In this document: positions 16,372 through 29,836 of the stretch, in pieces
Layout: each line of letters begins with the position of its first letter
Position numbering within the stretch: position 1 is the first letter of the stretch
NCBI GenBank assembly: GCA_947036815.1
Contig: CAMQRS010000015.1
Span: forward strand, 1 to 34,693
Reading direction: 5' to 3'
DNA: 34,693 bases
DNA from: an uncultured Erysipelotrichaceae bacterium
GTDB lineage: Bacteria; Bacillota_I; Bacilli_A; Erysipelotrichales; Erysipelotrichaceae
Translations under genes and position numbers: made by a program
The notes under the pieces: generated by a model
What the model was told of the DNA's origin: nothing
What the model saw: the letters and a program-made list of their open reading frames with translations, nothing else
Databases searched by the model: none

Positions 16372-16393
16372 ATAGAAAATGGGAGGTAATAAT

Positions 16394-17626
16394 ATGAATG
16401 AAACAATATTAAGAAAATATGCACGGCTAGGTGTTGTCATGGGCGCAAATGTGCAAAAAGGACAAGCGTTAATAATCAATACTTCTGTCGAGGCAGTAGA
16501 AATTACTAGATATGCGGTAGAGGAAGCGTATAAAGTAGGAGCTAGTGAAGTTATAGTAAACTGGGGAGATGATTTGATTTCACGTTTGCACTATGAATCT
16601 CAAAGTGTAGAAAGTTTATGTGATGTTCCTGAATGGATGGTTGAACAAAAAGTTGCGAAACTAAGAGCAGGCGCAGCAATATTACATATTATTAGTGATA
16701 CGCCTGGTATTATGGGTGGAATCGATGCAGAAAAAATAAGTGAAAGTATGAAAGTTAGAGGAGAAAAATTCAAAGAAGCTAGAGAAATTACGATGGCAAA
16801 TAAATCTCAGTGGTCGATTATTGCAGTACCTAATGTACGTTGGGCTAAACAAGTGTTTCCGGAGTTAAGTGAAAATGATGCGTTAGCGGCGTTGTGGGAT
16901 AAAGTGTTATTTGCGGTGCATGTAAGTGAAGATAACGATCCAATTGCGATTTGGAAAACACACAATAAAGCGCTTGGAGCGAGAGAAACGATTTTAAATG
17001 ATTATAATTTTAAGTCATTACATTTTAAAAATGAAGTTGGAACTGATATAACGATTGACTTAGTAAAAGATCATATTTGGGCTGGTGGAAGTGAATACAA
17101 TGCAAATGGTGTCGAATTTAATGCGAATATGCCGACAGAAGAAATATTTAGTATGCCTTATAAATACGGGGTTAATGGAACGGTAGTAACAACGAAACCG
17201 TTGGATTATAATGGAACATTAATAAATGAATTTTCACTGACGTTCAAAAATGGTAAAGTAGTTGAATACAGTGCGAGCAATGATTTGAGTACGCTAACGT
17301 CGTTAATTGAATTTGATGAAGGAAGTGCGTATATCGGAGAGGTTGCTTTAGTTCCTTATAGCTCACCCATTTCAATGAGTAATACGTTATTCTATAATAC
17401 ATTATTTGATGAAAATGCTTCATGTCATTTAGCGTTAGGTAGAGCGTACCCTATGAATGTTAAAGGAGGTGTTGAAATGAGTCAAGAAGAGTTGAATGAG
17501 GTAGGTAGTAATCATTCGATGACACATGTAGACTTTATGTTTGGAAGTAAGTGTATGAATATTGAAGGTGTTCAACAAGATGGAACAAGAGTTTCAGTGT
17601 TCGAAAATGGAGATTTCACATTCTAA
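16394..17626 (+). CDS. M29 family metallo-aminopeptidase
   Basis: The 410-residue protein matches the M29 (AmpS/PepS, thermophilic aminopeptidase) family, which removes N-terminal amino acids from peptides using two divalent metal ions. Family signatures near the C-terminal half are PTEEIFSMPYK, the ligand-bearing YIGEVALVPYSSPIS, CHLALGRAYP and MTHVDFMFGS, which together supply the Glu, His and Asp ligands. The N-terminal region LRKYARLGVVMGANVQKGQ is also typical. The start at 16394 follows GGGAGGT; an earlier ATG at 16379 overlaps that site and is rejected. It is probably cytoplasmic, as no signal is visible. It stands just before the opp operon, so it could act on peptides that operon imports; this is inference. 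Confidence 0.93.
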   Translation: MNETILRKYARLGVVMGANVQKGQALIINTSVEAVEITRYAVEEAYKVGASEVIVNWGDDLISRLHYESQSVESLCDVPEWMVEQKVAKLRAGAAILHIISDTPGIMGGIDAEKISESMKVRGEKFKEAREITMANKSQWSIIAVPNVRWAKQVFPELSENDALAALWDKVLFAVHVSEDNDPIAIWKTHNKALGARETILNDYNFKSLHFKNEVGTDITIDLVKDHIWAGGSEYNANGVEFNANMPTEEIFSMPYKYGVNGTVVTTKPLDYNGTLINEFSLTFKNGKVVEYSASNDLSTLTSLIEFDEGSAYIGEVALVPYSSPISMSNTLFYNTLFDENASCHLALGRAYPMNVKGGVEMSQEELNEVGSNHSMTHVDFMFGSKCMNIEGVQQDGTRVSVFENGDFTF

Positions 17627-20781: not shown

Positions 20782-22608
20782 ATGAAAAATAATAATAAAA
20801 AAACATCATTTTTAGGTTCTCTTAAAAATATGTTTAATGTAAGAAAAAGTAATGAAGTAATGAATAATTTAGAAGAAGAAGAAATACTTACTCCAATGAG
20901 AGTAATCGTTCGTAACTTTTTTGCTAATAAACTAGCAATTGTAGGAATAGTTTTATTTACTGCAATTTGTGTGTTTTCTTTTGCAGGAAATGCCTACTAC
21001 GATGTAAGTCTTACATATACGGAATCAACGTTAAGAAATATTAGTCCAGGAACAGGATATTTAAGTGTTCCATCTGAATTAGAAGAAAATGGTATCGTAG
21101 ACATTCAGTCTGGGGTTTCATTCAGTGTTGGTTTAGATGAACAAGGAAATATTTATACTTGGGGTGTAAGCACAAATGAATCTTTAGATTTGCCTGAAGG
21201 TACATTAGAACGAAAATACTCGCAAATAGCAGTAGGAGATCGTCATGTATTAGCATTAGGTGAAGATGGAGAAATATATGGATGGGGTTATAACTCATTC
21301 TCTCAATCAGAAGTTAATTTCGAACTTGAACAAGATTTAAGAGGTAAAGAAATTGAACAAATTTACGCGAGTGAAGCGTATTCAGCTGTATTAACAACAG
21401 ATAACGAAGTGTATGCTTGGGGATCTGTACTGAGTTCTAAAGTTGATAAAATTCCAGCTGACATTCAAGGTAAAATAATTGATGTGACTTGTGCAACTTA
21501 TAACATGTTACTGTTACTAGATGATGGTACAGTAGCCTCGGTAGGTGTAACAGGAAGTGATGTTGCTCAAATACCAACTGAATTAACAGATGGTAGTGTC
21601 AATGTTGTAGATGTAACAATGTCTTATCGTAATGGGTTAGCATTAGATGATGAAGGAAATATCCATGTTTGGGGATCTCAAACTCACGGATTATTAAAAG
21701 TTCCTGAAATTGAAGGAGAAGTTCTTCAAATCGCTAGTGGAAAAAACTCATTATTTGTAGCAACAGATGAAGATATTTATGCATGGGGAGATAACTCATT
21801 AGGTGAGTTAGATGCTCCGACAGTTGAAAATTTAGATACATTATTCGCAGGTTATTTCCAAATGTATGCAGTTAATACAAGTGGAGAAGTAGCGACTTGG
21901 GGAAACAATGGATTCTTATTTGGAACAGATGAATTCGGTAGAGATTTACTTAAGCGTCTGATGTCAGGGGGAACTGTGACATTAAGTGTAGGAGTTATCG
22001 CTGCTGTGATTTCAACTTTCTTAGGTTTATTAATTGGTATGTTATCTGGATTTATCGGTGGTAAAGTAGATAACTTATTAATGCGTTTTGGTGAAATTAT
22101 TATGTCAATTCCATTTATGCCAATCGTTATTACATTAAGTAGTATTGTAGGAAGTGAAGTAAGTCCTTCTACAAGAATTAATATGATTATGGTTATTTTA
22201 GGATTATTAAGTTGGCCAGGATTAGCGCGTCTAGTTCGTGGACAAATATTAGTTGAGCGTGAAAAAGATTTCGTGCTTGCTGCTAGAGCATTAGGAGTGA
22301 AAGAAGTGAATATTGTTATATCACACGTTCTTCCGAATGTAGTTAGTATTTGTATTGTAAATATGACTTTAAGTTATGCAGGATTTATGTTAACTGAATC
22401 TGGATTATCATATCTAGGATTCGGAGTTGCTAATCCACAAGCGTCTTGGGGAAATATGTTAAATAGTGTAACAAATAGTGAAGCGATTGAAAATTATTGG
22501 TGGAGATGGGTTTTACCAGCAATGTGTGTAGTTATCGCAGCTATAGGAATTAACTTTATTGGGACGGCGTTATCTGATGCGATCGATCCTAAGGCTAACG
22601 AGAAGTAG
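20782..22608 (+). CDS. oppC: OppC-type permease with inserted seven-blade RCC1-like propeller
   Basis: The ends of this 608-residue protein are a normal OppC: cytoplasmic N-terminus, helix 1 (about 51-69), then after residue 380 FGTDEFGRDLLKRLMSGG, five membrane helices and the EAA loop (about 493-520, REKDFVLAARALGVKEVN). Between them, about residues 104-378, are seven RCC1-like repeats. Each has the form of a short strand, xxAxGxxxSxAL, DxGxIYxWG. The WG positions are YTWG 125, YGWG 166, YAWG 211, a degenerate ASVG 252, HVWG 295, YAWG 333 and ATWG 371, spaced 38-45 residues. By topology the propeller is outside the membrane, facing OppA. The last blade runs straight into FGTDEFGRD. Without the insert the length is about 333, normal for OppC. 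AGGAGG lies seven bases before the start. Confidence 0.93.
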   Translation: MKNNNKKTSFLGSLKNMFNVRKSNEVMNNLEEEEILTPMRVIVRNFFANKLAIVGIVLFTAICVFSFAGNAYYDVSLTYTESTLRNISPGTGYLSVPSELEENGIVDIQSGVSFSVGLDEQGNIYTWGVSTNESLDLPEGTLERKYSQIAVGDRHVLALGEDGEIYGWGYNSFSQSEVNFELEQDLRGKEIEQIYASEAYSAVLTTDNEVYAWGSVLSSKVDKIPADIQGKIIDVTCATYNMLLLLDDGTVASVGVTGSDVAQIPTELTDGSVNVVDVTMSYRNGLALDDEGNIHVWGSQTHGLLKVPEIEGEVLQIASGKNSLFVATDEDIYAWGDNSLGELDAPTVENLDTLFAGYFQMYAVNTSGEVATWGNNGFLFGTDEFGRDLLKRLMSGGTVTLSVGVIAAVISTFLGLLIGMLSGFIGGKVDNLLMRFGEIIMSIPFMPIVITLSSIVGSEVSPSTRINMIMVILGLLSWPGLARLVRGQILVEREKDFVLAARALGVKEVNIVISHVLPNVVSICIVNMTLSYAGFMLTESGLSYLGFGVANPQASWGNMLNSVTNSEAIENYWWRWVLPAMCVVIAAIGINFIGTALSDAIDPKANEK

Positions 22609-22617
22609 GTGAAGGAT

Positions 22618-23604
22618 ATGAATAATTTATTAGAAATCAAAAATTTACACACATATTTTGATACAAAAAAAGGTTTAATTAAAGCTGTTAATGGAGTTAC
22701 TTTGACAATTGGTCAAGGAAGAACATTAGGAGTTGTAGGTGAATCTGGAAGTGGGAAATCTCAAACTGCTATGTCAGTACTTAGATTGTTTGAACACAAC
22801 CAAAAAATATATGAAGGAGAAGTTTTGTTTAATGGACAAGACATCTCTAAATGCTCGATTGATGAGTTAAGAAAAATTCGTGGAAACTCAATTTCAATGA
22901 TATTCCAAGAGCCAATGACATCATTAAATCCTGTATTTACAGTAGAGCGTCAAATTGGTGAAGTGTTAATGCTTCACCAAGGTGTTAGCAAAAAAGAAGC
23001 CAGAAAAAAAACAATTGAAGTATTAGCGCAAGTGAAAATTCATAACCCTGAGAAGATATGTAATTCTTATCCTTTCCAATTATCTGGTGGGATGAGACAA
23101 CGTGTTATGATTGCTATGGCCTTAGCATGTCGTCCGAAGTTACTAATAGCAGATGAGCCTACAACGGCTCTAGACGTTACTATTCAAGCTCAAATATTAA
23201 AACTAATGAATGAATTACAAGCTGATTTAGGAACAAGTATTATGTTTATTACACATGATTTAGGTGTTATTAACCAAATGGCTGATGATGTTGCAGTTAT
23301 GTATTGTGGGCAAGTAGTAGAACAAGCGCCGGTGGATTCAATATTCCATCCAACTACGTTCCTACATCCTTATACGGAAGGACTTTTAACTTCTATTCCA
23401 AGATTAGATTCTGATAGAAATGCAAGGTTGGAAGCAATTCCAGGTTCAGTGCCACATCCTTTAGCATTGCCAAGTGGATGTAGATTTGCACCACGTTGTA
23501 AATATGCAAAAGAAATATGTCATAAAGAAAATCCTGAATTAAGTGAAATAGCGCCAAATCATTTGATTCGTTGTCACTATCCTGTGAAGAGAGGAGAAGA
23601 ATAA
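22618..23604 (+). CDS. oppD: Oligopeptide ABC transporter ATP-binding protein OppD
   Basis: One of two cytoplasmic ATPases powering peptide import, 328 residues. Walker A is GESGSGKS (41-48), Q-loop Gln97 in [11 protein letters not shown], signature LSGGMRQR (155-162), Walker [13 protein letters not shown] (175-186) and H-loop His213. The C-terminal OppD/DppD extension carries four cysteines (Cys288, Cys294, Cys301, Cys319) in the GCRFAPRC...C...RCHYP pattern, which in this family can bind an iron-sulfur cluster. The ATG at 22618 is chosen over a GTG at 22609 because AGGTG lies at suitable spacing. The stop codon overlaps the oppF start by one base (TAATG), so translation is coupled. Confidence 0.95.
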
Positions 23605-25013
23605 TGAGTCAACAAAAAGAACTAGTTAGAATATCAAATTTAAAGAAACATTTTCCTATGAAAAAATCTAGTATATTTTCAAAAGAACAATTATATGTAA
23701 AAGCAAATGATGGAATTACCTTATCAATTAGAGAAGGTGAAACATTTGGTTTAGTTGGAGAAAGTGGTTGTGGTAAATCTACTTTAGGTAGAGTATTACT
23801 TCAATTGTATCCTCAAACACAAGGGAATACAGTTTATTATGGAAAAAGTATCTATGAGGTGAAACCTGCATATGTTACTACCATTTTAAAGAAATTAAAT
23901 GCGAATGTGACTAAGTATAAAAAAGCACTAAGTGCTTCACAAGAGCATCTAGAAGATGAAAATCATAAAACACATGATGAAGAGAAAAAGAACTTTAATG
24001 TACTTGCACGTTTAGCAGGTGGATTAATGTTTAGCTCTGATTTATCTGCAGTTTCTAAAATTCTTTTAGAACAATATACAATAGGATGCAAAGTTGCTGA
24101 ATTATATGTTAAAAGCAATGGAGAAATCAGTTCAGAAATTAAAACTTTAGAAGTTCAAATGGATGAAATTGCAAGCCGTATTGCAACAATGAAACAATCA
24201 TTGAGTAATGAAGCAGATTTTGAAAGAGCAGAAGCAGAATACGATACTGGCTTAGATTTAACTTTGTTAAGTAAGTCTGAATTACGTCTGTTACGCCAAG
24301 ATATTCAAATTATCTTTCAAGATCCATATAGTTCTTTAAATCCAAAACTAACTGTAGGGCAAATTATATCTGAGGCATTAACTGCTCATAATGTATATCC
24401 GAAAGGTAGCCATGAATTAGAAGATTACGTATTATCTATTATGGATAAATGTGGGTTGGATAAATATTTCTTACATCGTTATTCTCACCAATTTTCTGGT
24501 GGACAAAGACAACGTATTGGAATTGCTAGAGCACTTGCATTAAAACCTAAGTTTATTGTATGTGATGAGGCTGTATCAGCACTAGATGTTTCTATCCAAT
24601 CTCAAATAATTAATTTATTACAAGATTTAAAAGAACAAGAAAATCTTACATACTTATTTATTACTCATGATTTAAGTGTTGTTAAATATATCTCTGATCG
24701 TATTGGAGTTATGTATTTAGGAAATATGGTTGAATTAGCGAATTCTGAAGATATCTTCAAAAATCCTGCACATCCATATACACAAGCATTAATGAATGCA
24801 ATTCCTACGACAGATATAAATAATAGAGAATTACATATTTTAGAGGGGGATATACCAAGTCCGATTAATCCTCCAAAAGGATGTAAATTCCATACACGTT
24901 GTGAGTTTGCATGTGATGTATGTAAACAAGTGAATCCTAGATGGCGTGAAATTGAAGATGGACATTTTGTTGCTTGTCACAAAACTGACCCAGAAATGAG
25001 CGAAAATTTCTAG
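23604..25013 (+). CDS. oppF: Oligopeptide ABC transporter ATP-binding protein OppF with large internal insert
   Basis: The second ATPase of the importer. Walker A is GESGCGKST (52-60), the Q-loop is in IFQDPYSSLNP (Gln239), signature FSGGQRQR (297-304), Walker B FIVCDEAVSALD (317-328), H-loop His355. The C-terminal Cys pattern CKFHTRCEFACDVC ... C is kept. The protein is 469 residues, against about 310-330 in typical OppF, because of roughly 137 extra residues (about 86-222) between Walker A and the Q-loop. The insert is Lys/Glu-rich and helical (ILKKLNANVTKYKKALSASQ; SSEIKTLEVQMDEIASRIA), with a hydrophobic middle, and probably forms a coiled coil. The start in TAATG, preceded by GAGAGGAG, is favoured over an upstream GTG or TTG. 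Confidence 0.94.
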   Translation: MSQQKELVRISNLKKHFPMKKSSIFSKEQLYVKANDGITLSIREGETFGLVGESGCGKSTLGRVLLQLYPQTQGNTVYYGKSIYEVKPAYVTTILKKLNANVTKYKKALSASQEHLEDENHKTHDEEKKNFNVLARLAGGLMFSSDLSAVSKILLEQYTIGCKVAELYVKSNGEISSEIKTLEVQMDEIASRIATMKQSLSNEADFERAEAEYDTGLDLTLLSKSELRLLRQDIQIIFQDPYSSLNPKLTVGQIISEALTAHNVYPKGSHELEDYVLSIMDKCGLDKYFLHRYSHQFSGGQRQRIGIARALALKPKFIVCDEAVSALDVSIQSQIINLLQDLKEQENLTYLFITHDLSVVKYISDRIGVMYLGNMVELANSEDIFKNPAHPYTQALMNAIPTTDINNRELHILEGDIPSPINPPKGCKFHTRCEFACDVCKQVNPRWREIEDGHFVACHKTDPEMSENF

Positions 25014-25674: not shown

Positions 25675-27387
25675 ATGTTAAAAGGTATCGCGGCTTCAGC
25701 TGGTATTGCTGTAGCAAAAGTTTATAAATTAGAAGTTCCTGTACTGGATATTGTAAAAAAAGATTGTGCAGATTCAGAAGCAGAAATTGCTAAGTTTAAT
25801 GATGCATTAGAAGTTACAAAATCTGATATTGAAGGAATTAAAGAAAGAGCTACGGCAGCTGGAAAACTTTCTGTGGAAGAAATTGCAGTTTTCGATGCGC
25901 ATTTAATGATGGCTGGAGATCCAGAATTTGGTGGACAAATTATTTCAATGATTACAAATGACAAAGTGAATGCAGAATTCGCGGCTGAATGTGTTGCGAA
26001 TACAACGGTTGCTATGTTTGAATCTATGGACAATGATTACTTTAGAGAAAGAGCAGCAGATGTTAAAGATGTTACTTTCCGTTTAAAAGCTAACATAATG
26101 GGAGCTATTATTCCTGATTTAGGTGCAATTAATGAAAACTCAATTATTGTTGCTCATGACTTAACACCAAGTGATACAGCACAATTAAATGAATATGCAA
26201 AAGGGTTTGTTACTTCTATCGGAGGAAGAACAAGTCATTCAGCTATCATGGCTAGAAGTTTAGAAATACCTGCAGTTGTTGGATGTAGCGGAATTTTAGA
26301 AGAAGCTAACCACAACAATGTAATTGCAATGGATGCAATTACAGGAGATGTTGTATTAAATCCTACACAAGAACAAATAGCAGAATTCGAAGCTAAAAAA
26401 GTTACTTTCTTAGCAGAAAAAGAAGCATTAAAAGTATTAAAAGACGCTCCATCTGTTTCAACTGATGGGCACCATGTAGAATTAGCTGGAAATATTGGAA
26501 CTCCTGCTGATGTTGAAGGTGTTGTAAATAATGGTGGAGAAGGTGTTGGACTATACCGTACAGAATTCTTGTACATGAACTCTCAAGAATTCCCAACTGA
26601 AGAAGAACAATTCGTTGCATATAAAGCAGTTTTAGAAGGAATGAATGGTAAAAAAGTAGTTGTTAGAACATTAGACATAGGTGGAGATAAAATTCTTCCT
26701 TACTTTACATTCCCAGAAGAAATGAACCCTTTCTTAGGATATAGAGCAATTCGTTTATGTTTAGATCGCACAGATATTTTCCGTACACAATTACGAGCGT
26801 TATGTCGTGCATCAGTATTCGGTAAATTATGTATTATGTTCCCTATGATTGCAACAATCAAAGAGTTCTGTGATGCAAAAGCTATTTTTGAAGATGAAAA
26901 AGTTAAATTAATTGCTGAAGGTATTGCAGTTGATGCAAATATTGAAATTGGTATGATGGTTGAGATTCCTGCAGCAGCAGTATTAGCTGATCAATTTGCT
27001 AAACATGCAGATTTCTTCTCAATTGGAACTAACGATTTAATTCAATATTCAATGGCAGCTGACCGTATGAGTGAAAAAGTAGCTTACTTATACCAACCTT
27101 ACAACCCATCAATCTTACGTTTAATTAAAATGACTATCGATGGAGCACATAAAGAAGGTAAATGGGCTGGAATGTGTGGAGAAATGGCTGGGGAACCAGA
27201 TGCTGTAGCAATTTTATTAGGATTAGGATTAGATGAATTCTCTATGAGTGCAACATCTATCTTAGGTGCTAGAAAAGTAATTAACTCATTAAGTAAAAAA
27301 GAAATGGAATTAGCCGCAGAAAAATGTTTATCATTTGATACAGCTGAAGAAGTTCAAGCTTACATAAAAAAAGTTATCGCTAAATAA
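25675..27387 (+). CDS. ptsI: Phosphoenolpyruvate-protein phosphotransferase (PTS enzyme I)
   Basis: Enzyme I takes phosphate from PEP and passes it to HPr, feeding all sugar PTS systems, including the EII genes further downstream. The 570-residue length is normal. The N-terminal HPr-binding and phosphohistidine domain contains [12 protein letters not shown] with the phosphorylated His188. The C-terminal TIM barrel carries [46 protein letters not shown] and the active-site Cys segment [16 protein letters not shown] precedes the start. No ptsH is next to it, and it is monocistronic with its own promoter and terminator. Confidence 0.97.
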
Positions 27388-27643: not shown

Positions 27644-27856
27644 TTAAATTGAACAAGAAGAACCCTCTCACAATTAGAGCGTGGTAGCAGGTAGTCTTTT
27701 TCATAATGATAGTGAATCGAAGGAATCTAAATAGTAAATATGGTAAATTTAATTTAAATAGATAACTACTGAATTAAAAATTACCGTATTAAAATGGTAG
27801 TTATATATTTTAAATTACAGTATAAAAAAATGTATACTGTAGAAACAGGAGGACTT
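27644..27856 (+). promoter_or_regulatory. Long leader with inverted repeats before the PRD regulator
   Basis: No credible gene is present. The first part (about 27655-27700) is richer in G and C than the surroundings. Then come ATAACTAC (27762-27769) with GTAGTTAT (27797-27804), a competing TACC/GGTA pair inside it, and a strong 9-bp repeat, TACAGTATA (27816-27824) with TATACTGTA (27833-27841), ending just before AGGAGG. They could be operators for the regulator or mRNA hairpins that limit its translation. The motif TGGTAAATT...ATAGATAA (27741-27765) recurs before the EIIB gene. Confidence 0.5.
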
Positions 27857-29836
27857 ATGAAGGAAGAAAAGAAAAGTTATTATATTATTAAAATTATGGA
27901 ATTGTTATTAGATGGTAACGTGCTTACAATCGATGCGATTTCCACACAGATAAAGGTTTCAGAAAAAACCACACGAACCAAAATAAATGAAATTAATGAT
28001 TTCCTAAGAAAGAATGATTTGGGTGAAATTTTGAAAAAACCTCGCATAGGTGTTTGGTATAGTTGTACTATGGATCAACAAGAAAAAACTAAATCTATTA
28101 TGTACAATGTTGAGCAAGTAAAATCAATTAATTTTGGAAATATACTATCTAATGATGAAAGACTATTTAAGGTATTAACTTATATTTTTAAGAATAGAAA
28201 AAAAGAAATTATAACAAGTCAAAAATTAGGTAGTGTATTATTTTTAAGCACACCGACAATTTTAAAAATTCTTAAGGATTGTGAACTATGGTTTAGAAAA
28301 TATGGAATCATTTTAGAGAATCACAGAACAAAAGGAATTGTTATTTATTTTGATGAAAATAGTTATCGTAGAGCTGTACAACAATTAATATTACAGGCGT
28401 CAGGAGTGAAAAACATTGAAAAGAATATTATAAATTTACTTCCTGGAATCCGCTATGAATCAATCAAAAAAACAATTTTAAAATCTGAAACAGAATGGAA
28501 CTTTGAATTTGTGGATGAATCATTTTATGAAATTTTAGTTTATTGTTGTGTTGCAGCTTCTAGAGGGAATAGAGGCACCATAGTAATTGAAGATGAAGAT
28601 ATTGAAACATTAAAACGATATAACGAGTATTTATTTGCAAAAACAATTATGCAATATTTAACTAGCGAATGTTCGATCAACTTTTCAGATAATGAAATCT
28701 ATTTATTAGCGATTCAAATATTATGTGCTAAATTCATGGAAAAAGATTTTGAACTAGGGTATAGAGATGCGGTGAAAGTGTACGATGATAAATTAATTCA
28801 ATTTACAGATGAAATGATATCTATGAGTAGTAACATCCTAGGAGTAGATTTAAAAGATGACAACATATTAAAAGAATCGTTAGTTATTCATCTAAGAAGT
28901 ACTTTATTTAGAATGAAATACAGTTCGTTGGCTACTAATACATTAATTTATTATATAAAAAAACAATACAAACATGTATTTAGAGCGATGTGGGGATTGA
29001 GTATTTTATTTGAAAGATACTTTGATTGTAATATTACGGAAGATGAATTGGGCTTTATTTGTTTGTACTTTCAAGCGGCTTTAGAGCGTAAGAAAACAAA
29101 GATGTATCAAATATTGATTGTGTCTACTCACTCGAGAAGCACGAATCAACTGATTGTTCATAAAATTTTAAAAGTAGGAGCAGGAATGGTAAGCGTAGAT
29201 GTAGTCGGGGTACATGATTTCAAAATTAAATGCTATGATAAATATGATCTTATTTATACTACGGACGATTTAGGAATTAAAGATAGTAGAGTAAAAGAGT
29301 TAAAGGATATTATAAGCAATGACTGGATCAATGAGTTATATAGTTATTTCAACCAATATAACATGGAGGAAAAAAGTGTTGTTTATACCTTTGATGTTGA
29401 GTGTCATCAATTGTTTGATCCTGATTTAATTTGTTTAAATATAGAGTGTAATACAAAGGAAGAAATATTAGAACTATTATCTTCCAAGTTACAAAAAAAA
29501 GGAATGGTTACGAAGCAATTTTTTGAAACAGTGATGCTAAGAGAAGGTGTTACATCAACTGATATTGGAAATGGGATAGCGTTGCCTCACGGGGATCAAC
29601 GTCTTGTGAATCAAGCTAAAGTAGCGATAGCGATATTAAAAAAACCTATCTTGTGGAATCAGGAAGAAGTAGATATAGTTTTTTTATTAGCTATGAAGAT
29701 GGAGACAAAAGATGAAGTTAGTAGAGCTCAAAAATTTTACAAGCAATATATAAGGTTGATCGAAACTGAAGAAAAATTGCAATTATTAAAGGGGTTTGAA
29801 ACCAATATAGATTTATATAACTATTTAATACGTTAA
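27857..29836 (+). CDS. PRD-containing transcriptional regulator with EIIB- and EIIA-like domains (MtlR/LicR type)
   Basis: This 659-residue activator type couples transcription to PTS phosphorylation. Domain order: N-terminal helix-turn-helix (about 1-70, IDAISTQIKVSEKTTRTKINEI split across its helices), PRD1 (about 195-295), PRD2 (about 305-415), an EIIB-like domain from about 416 (YQILIVSTHSRSTNQLI), and an EIIA domain (about 535-659) with the phosphorylatable His578 in IALPHGD. PRD2 keeps His345 in VIHLRSTLFRM, but the PRD1 region contains no histidine, and the EIIB loop has no cysteine. The start at 27857 follows AGGAGG; an earlier ATG at 27794 would translate through the leader hairpins. 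It heads the operon and probably controls it. Confidence 0.92.
   Translation: MKEEKKSYYIIKIMELLLDGNVLTIDAISTQIKVSEKTTRTKINEINDFLRKNDLGEILKKPRIGVWYSCTMDQQEKTKSIMYNVEQVKSINFGNILSNDERLFKVLTYIFKNRKKEIITSQKLGSVLFLSTPTILKILKDCELWFRKYGIILENHRTKGIVIYFDENSYRRAVQQLILQASGVKNIEKNIINLLPGIRYESIKKTILKSETEWNFEFVDESFYEILVYCCVAASRGNRGTIVIEDEDIETLKRYNEYLFAKTIMQYLTSECSINFSDNEIYLLAIQILCAKFMEKDFELGYRDAVKVYDDKLIQFTDEMISMSSNILGVDLKDDNILKESLVIHLRSTLFRMKYSSLATNTLIYYIKKQYKHVFRAMWGLSILFERYFDCNITEDELGFICLYFQAALERKKTKMYQILIVSTHSRSTNQLIVHKILKVGAGMVSVDVVGVHDFKIKCYDKYDLIYTTDDLGIKDSRVKELKDIISNDWINELYSYFNQYNMEEKSVVYTFDVECHQLFDPDLICLNIECNTKEEILELLSSKLQKKGMVTKQFFETVMLREGVTSTDIGNGIALPHGDQRLVNQAKVAIAILKKPILWNQEEVDIVFLLAMKMETKDEVSRAQKFYKQYIRLIETEEKLQLLKGFETNIDLYNYLIR

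Follow-up and report, generated by a model that had tools for sequence, protein, structure and literature searches.

A predicted seven-bladed RCC1/BLIP-II-like propeller inserted in the OppC permease of oligopeptide importers from a lineage of Bacillota

Few ABC importers have been studied as thoroughly as those for oligopeptides. Cryo-EM of DppABCDF showed DppA bound by the scoop, the loop of DppB between transmembrane helices 1 and 2 (TM1-TM2 loop; PMC12136057), and in an AlphaFold model of the pneumococcal Ami system lobe 2 of the binding protein is touched by the equivalent loop of AmiD, which corresponds to OppC (PMC11192437). The classical extra domain of a permease subunit is MalF-P2 of the maltose importer, a folded extracytoplasmic domain (MalF residues 91-271) that is inserted in the subunit and contacts the binding protein (PMC3150292), and the large extracellular domains ECD1 and ECD2 of AmiC, likewise parts of an oligopeptide permease, have been proposed to act as a clamp on the binding protein (PMC11192437). 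The OppC protein described here shares the TM1 region, the FGTDxxGRD motif, the permease core and an oppABCDF operon with E. coli OppC (8z21) and DppC (8z1v), but carries ~285 residues where ordinary OppC and DppC proteins have a short TM1-TM2 loop. MalF-P2 differs from this insert in subunit family, loop and fold, and the likeness is one of analogy, not kinship. The AmiC domains are borne by an OppB-type subunit and are not reported as propellers, whereas here OppC bears the domain and OppB is of ordinary length.

The operon is located in a stretch of 34,693 nt from an uncultured Erysipelotrichaceae bacterium (GCA_947036815.1, contig CAMQRS010000015.1), referred to as the window. Its gene order, oppA-B-C-D-F (Table 1), is nearly constant in related operons, with C-F-D being found in L089 and its kin, and the propeller-bearing oppC was adjoined by oppA and oppB in all 61 operons compared. 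Full OppD and OppF were not found in two short divergent operons of the propeller clade. The nearest solved structure to the window OppA is OppA 9p48 (E 3e-34), and the window OppB lacks a long extracellular extension like that of AmiC. In the window OppF, the ABC_tran match is stretched over residues 48-335 and the best PRK15079 stretch starts at residue 227; OppF is also long (432-711 aa) in most other operons of the propeller clade, and lacks the long insert in the Gemmiger/Oscillospiraceae group (~336 aa) and in the insert-less sister. Directly upstream of oppA, on the same strand, lies an M29 aminopeptidase gene (16379-17626, E 1.7e-153), which was rejected as a conserved neighbor because none was found beside related operons. 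A PRD/EIIA-type regulator with a Mga-like helix-turn-helix is encoded at 27794-29836, and a PTS enzyme I-like gene (25675-27387) lies upstream of it. The home genome encodes one protein with OppC_N and one with SBP_bac_5, both in the window operon, and a single OppC-like core at E 1e-40. Thus, the operon probably encodes a working peptide importer, which is probably the only one of the family-5 type in this genome, and this sole-importer status suggests that the propeller is compatible with transport.

Table 1. Coordinates of the opp genes and of the parts of the propeller-bearing OppC in the window
Feature	Position (nt)	Strand	Evidence
oppA, lipoprotein-type family-5 substrate-binding protein, 606 aa	17883..19703	+	SBP_bac_5 E 5e-40
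oppB, ordinary length, 319 aa	19811..20770	+	BPD_transp_1 E 3e-39 + BPD_transp_1_N
oppC with inserted propeller	20782..22608	+	one uninterrupted frame, 608 aa
OppC_N region with TM1, residues 37-75	20890..21006	+	PF12911 match 37-75; AF2 helix 50-72
N-terminal linker, residues 76-97, conserved N86, P89, P97	21007..21072	+	conservation counts, 67 homologues
Seven-bladed RCC1/BLIP-II-like propeller (predicted), residues 98-374	21073..21903	+	Pfam, AF2, Foldseek/VIA-align
Blade 1, residues 105-128	21094..21165	+	AF2 strands
Blade 2, residues 146-169	21217..21288	+	AF2 strands
Blade 3, residues 191-214	21352..21423	+	AF2 strands
Blade 4, residues 232-255, degenerate anchor	21475..21546	+	AF2 strands; anchor composition
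Blade 5, residues 275-298	21604..21675	+	AF2 strands
Blade 6, residues 314-336	21721..21789	+	AF2 strands
Blade 7, residues 351-374, aromatic cluster Y358 F359 Q360 Y362	21832..21903	+	AF2; conservation
C-terminal linker NNGFL (375-379), then F-G-T-D (380-383)	21904..21930	+	sequence
OppC permease core, residues 379-608	21916..22605	+	PDB match E. coli OppC 8z21_B, E 1e-47, residues 375-604
oppD ATPase	22609..23604	+	ABC_tran + oligo_HPY
oppF ATPase, ~145-residue insert between Walker A and Q-loop region	23571..25013	+	ABC_tran, PRK15079

A preceding sequence-only reading had described one frame that joins an OppC N-terminus with TM1, seven repeats and an OppC core, and the frame, the Pfam matches and the PDB match confirmed this composition. 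Both permease parts exceeded their curated Pfam cut-offs, OppC_N (PF12911) with 26.2 bits against 23.9 and BPD_transp_1 (PF00528, residues 415-605 of 608) with 99.1 bits against 26.4; the nearest named model, the NCBIfam equivalog Opp4C (NF045476), gave 291.3 bits, below the 350 that its membership rule demands. Between the two Pfam matches, six stretches matched RCC1_2 (PF13540; E 1.1e-33, 114.6 bits against a cut-off of 22), and the insert also passed the curated cut-off of RCC1 (PF00415; 25.7 against 21.7 bits), in line with the RCC1 kinship proposed earlier, and stayed below that of the RCC1-like domain model WD40_RLD (PF25390; 121.6 against 150 bits). A sequence search likewise revealed that the middle of the protein resembles UVR8, HERC2 and BLIP-II, and that its C-terminal part is OppC. 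Considering these E-values and the existence of 66 further homologues, a chance origin of the RCC1 match is excluded.

In an AlphaFold2 model of OppC built on an alignment of 29 relatives, each of the seven blades was three-stranded with high confidence (pLDDT ~66 to 94 per ten-residue block, mostly >80), and the blades are predicted to close into one propeller of the RCC1/BLIP-II fold. The membrane core of the same model was poor (pLDDT ~45), and the orientation of the propeller is not readable from it. The best solved fold match was BLIP-II (3qi0_A; Z 29.6, rmsd 2.2 Å, 259 aligned residues, 28% identity; Foldseek/VIA-align), with UVR8, HERC2 and RCC1 ranking behind it. The complete seven-bladed propeller proposed from the sequence was therefore upheld by the prediction, whereas the likeness drawn to eukaryotic RCC1 gave way to bacterial BLIP-II, which is nearer in length and fold. 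BLIP-II (3qi0, 3qhy, 1jtd) and the RCC1-like domains of UVR8, HERC2 and RCC1 are likewise seven-bladed, but BLIP-II and RCC1 are free secreted or nuclear proteins, while the OppC propeller is a domain within a membrane permease; moreover, it is likened to BLIP-II by fold and sequence alone, which does not imply beta-lactamase binding. W-G anchors occur at residues 127, 168, 213, 297, 335 and 373, as had been read, and the blade 4 anchor at position 254, correctly taken as degenerate and differing in this from BLIP-II and RCC1, is V-G in the window and mostly L-T, L-G or L-S in relatives, with W-G absent from the commonest residue pairs at this position across the 67 homologues. All 67 propeller-bearing OppCs keep seven blades, which together with the seven modeled blades rules out a propeller fragment or a decayed repeat. 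Conserved positions of the propeller belong mostly to the blade scaffold, the clearest exception being the family-specific blade 7 aromatic cluster near the C-terminal linker, which is conserved above the equivalent positions of the other blades. Scaffold and blade 7 patch apart, the free surface is variable.

The insert had been placed at nt 21091-21915; this location stood, whereas comparison with insert-less sisters made the insert slightly longer on its 5' side (nt 21052-21912, about residue 91 to 377). It follows an (A/S)PG motif near residue 90 and stops immediately ahead of FGTDxxGRD (380-388), occupying a site where insert-less relatives have a short stretch, and G377, G381 and D383 are invariant across the 67 homologues. 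The extracytoplasmic place assigned to the loop after helix 1 follows the established topology of OppC and DppC (PMC12136057, PMC11192437). Given this topology and a last propeller strand that stops only ~5 residues ahead of the FGTD motif, the propeller must be held near OppC's outer face.

The 67 distinct propeller-bearing OppC proteins, that of the window included, come from two classes of Bacillota. Full-length relatives occur both within the family to which the window belongs and in further families of the same class, and in the second class the protein was detected in 17 of 391 genomes; named genomes include Gemmiger, Pseudoflavonifractor, Anaeromassilibacillus, Intestinimonas and others. 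In a quick tree, the permease cores of all 67 formed one clade (SH-aLRT 97), the sister of which (L110 and L111) comprises similarly built opp systems that lack the insert. Scored by their cores alone, the clade members reached 366 to 494 bits (66 of 67 at least 370, the remaining one 366) and insert-less proteins at most 356; thus, any insert-less member of the clade would, if sampled, have been listed among the matches, and none was. Moreover, no loss of the propeller was seen among ~780 sampled genomes. One clade with an insert-less sister fits a single gain, and one gain followed by long retention is the simplest reading of the tree.

Other large inserts were also encountered. Two propeller-bearing OppCs, L073 (1357-4791, 1144 aa) and L074 (3697-5967, 756 aa), have further large inserts within the propeller region, one of them with long coiled-coil-like stretches. 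In a separate clade of OppCs (L075-L084, 479-917 aa), the TM1-TM2 loop is likewise enlarged, but by inserts of other kinds. No Pfam match was obtained for the inserts of the members scanned, and owing to these unrelated inserts the loop seems to be a recurrent insertion site. Weak propeller matches in the same bacterial family were rejected as further OppCs, most being proteins of another architecture (L018-L026 and L028; genomes G078, G059, G044, G067, G069, G002, G029, G046, G056 and G034). These proteins (~565-700 aa) combine an N-terminal XRE-type helix-turn-helix, one TM helix, an RCC1/BLIP-II-like propeller and an FN3-like tail, the domains other than the propeller match being judged by eye, and the arrangement looks like a one-piece transmembrane regulator.

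Judging from the Dpp, Ami and MalF precedents, a propeller at this site of OppC is in a good position to contact OppA. The roles offered by the sequence-only reading were capture of peptides, holding of OppA and binding of another partner, and the data weakly favor the second: that the propeller is a docking or positioning domain for OppA, a role suggested by its anatomy and weakly by co-evolution, is given an even chance here and is the likeliest of the roles considered. In this scheme, an OppABCDF importer would once in evolution have taken up a complete seven-bladed propeller in its OppC TM1-TM2 loop, and the propeller, held on the outer face of OppC by tethers of ~20 residues on one side and ~5 on the other, would serve as a docking platform that touches the lobe-2 side of loaded OppA at a site opposite the OppB scoop loop and retains or orients OppA while the peptide is released. 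It would work like MalF-P2 or the extra AmiC domains, with a different fold and on another permease subunit, its contact with OppA being putative where that of MalF-P2 with its binding protein is established. The aromatic cluster of blade 7, next to the short C-terminal linker, is what a propeller seated firmly on the permease would be expected to show. Against docking, the insert-less sister presumably works without a propeller.

Divergence was compared among the operons, of which 29 were non-redundant. Mean identity was 32% for the propeller, 35% for OppA and 57% for the permease core, indicating similar rates of divergence for the propeller and OppA and a much lower rate for the core. In mirror-tree analysis, the residual divergence of the propeller correlated with that of OppA (partial r 0.35-0.38), and, with the lobe boundary set approximately by analogy with known structures, with that of OppA lobe 2 (partial r 0.28, p 0.009) and not significantly with that of lobe 1 (0.09). 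A similar residual correlation (0.25-0.37) was obtained for the control, cytoplasmic OppD, with which no contact is possible, and in Bacilli alone the propeller-OppA value was 0.18 and not significant (n=14); the co-evolution signal is therefore counted as weak. The idea that OppA gained an extra segment to pair with the propeller was rejected, because the OppA of the insert-less sister (601 aa) is about the same size as that of the window.

The next likeliest reading, although itself rather unlikely, is that the propeller is instead a receptor for a partner other than OppA, such as a cell-wall polymer, an extracellular peptidase or a host or neighbor protein, which would bring the importer beside a source of peptides. 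RCC1 and BLIP-II propellers bind proteins, the affinity of BLIP-II being picomolar (title of 3qi0), the variable surface looks as if partners differed by species, and the M29 gene adjoining the window oppA suggests peptide use. The same variability speaks against a single conserved ligand such as peptidoglycan, however, and no conserved partner gene was seen nearby, the peptidase gene being confined to the window operon among those compared. Also unlikely is a more specific version of this proposal, in which a separate partner outside the cell (for instance a peptidase or a surface under degradation) is recruited by the propeller and peptides are passed to OppA where they are made.

Ligand binding in the central funnel is common among propellers, and this general feature, like the position beside the entry site, would agree with a propeller that itself binds peptides and so provides a second site of capture or selectivity, before OppA or next to it. 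Such a role appears quite improbable, considering that family-specific conserved residues are lacking besides scaffold and stalk and that the operon retains its own OppA throughout. We attach a similarly low probability to the reading that a forgiving loop tolerates the domain as an almost neutral insert or spacer: high propeller divergence, the unrelated inserts in the same loop of the separate OppC clade and the further inserts accepted by the L073 and L074 propellers would be consistent with it, whereas seven blades intact in every homologue, no observed loss, and a conserved linker and blade 7 patch argue against it. An assembly or frame artefact that fuses two genes, for which nothing speaks beyond a draft genome of 68 contigs, is exceedingly improbable and was ruled out, as the same in-frame fusion recurs in 66 other genes from dozens of independent assemblies, including the isolate genomes of Gemmiger sp. 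An120 and Anaeromassilibacillus sp. An200.

Literature searches on RCC1 with OppC, ABC permeases, oligopeptide permease and Gemmiger, made in a collection with few subscription journals, returned nothing relevant; in agreement with the earlier surmise, an OppC with an RCC1-type propeller appears to have no description in that literature, even though Pfam recognizes its parts. Should recruitment of a partner prove true, the propeller would be a permease-borne targeting device, and to our knowledge such a device is not known from any ABC importer. A whole lineage of Bacillota, including Gemmiger and its relatives, bears a full predicted propeller at the meeting point of permease and binding protein, indicating that the OppC TM1-TM2 loop can accommodate a large domain and retain it. 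Sister lineages with and without the propeller offer a natural experiment on how a permease recognizes, retains and unloads its binding protein, and the finding bears on peptide uptake in bacteria that possibly have no other family-5 peptide importer.
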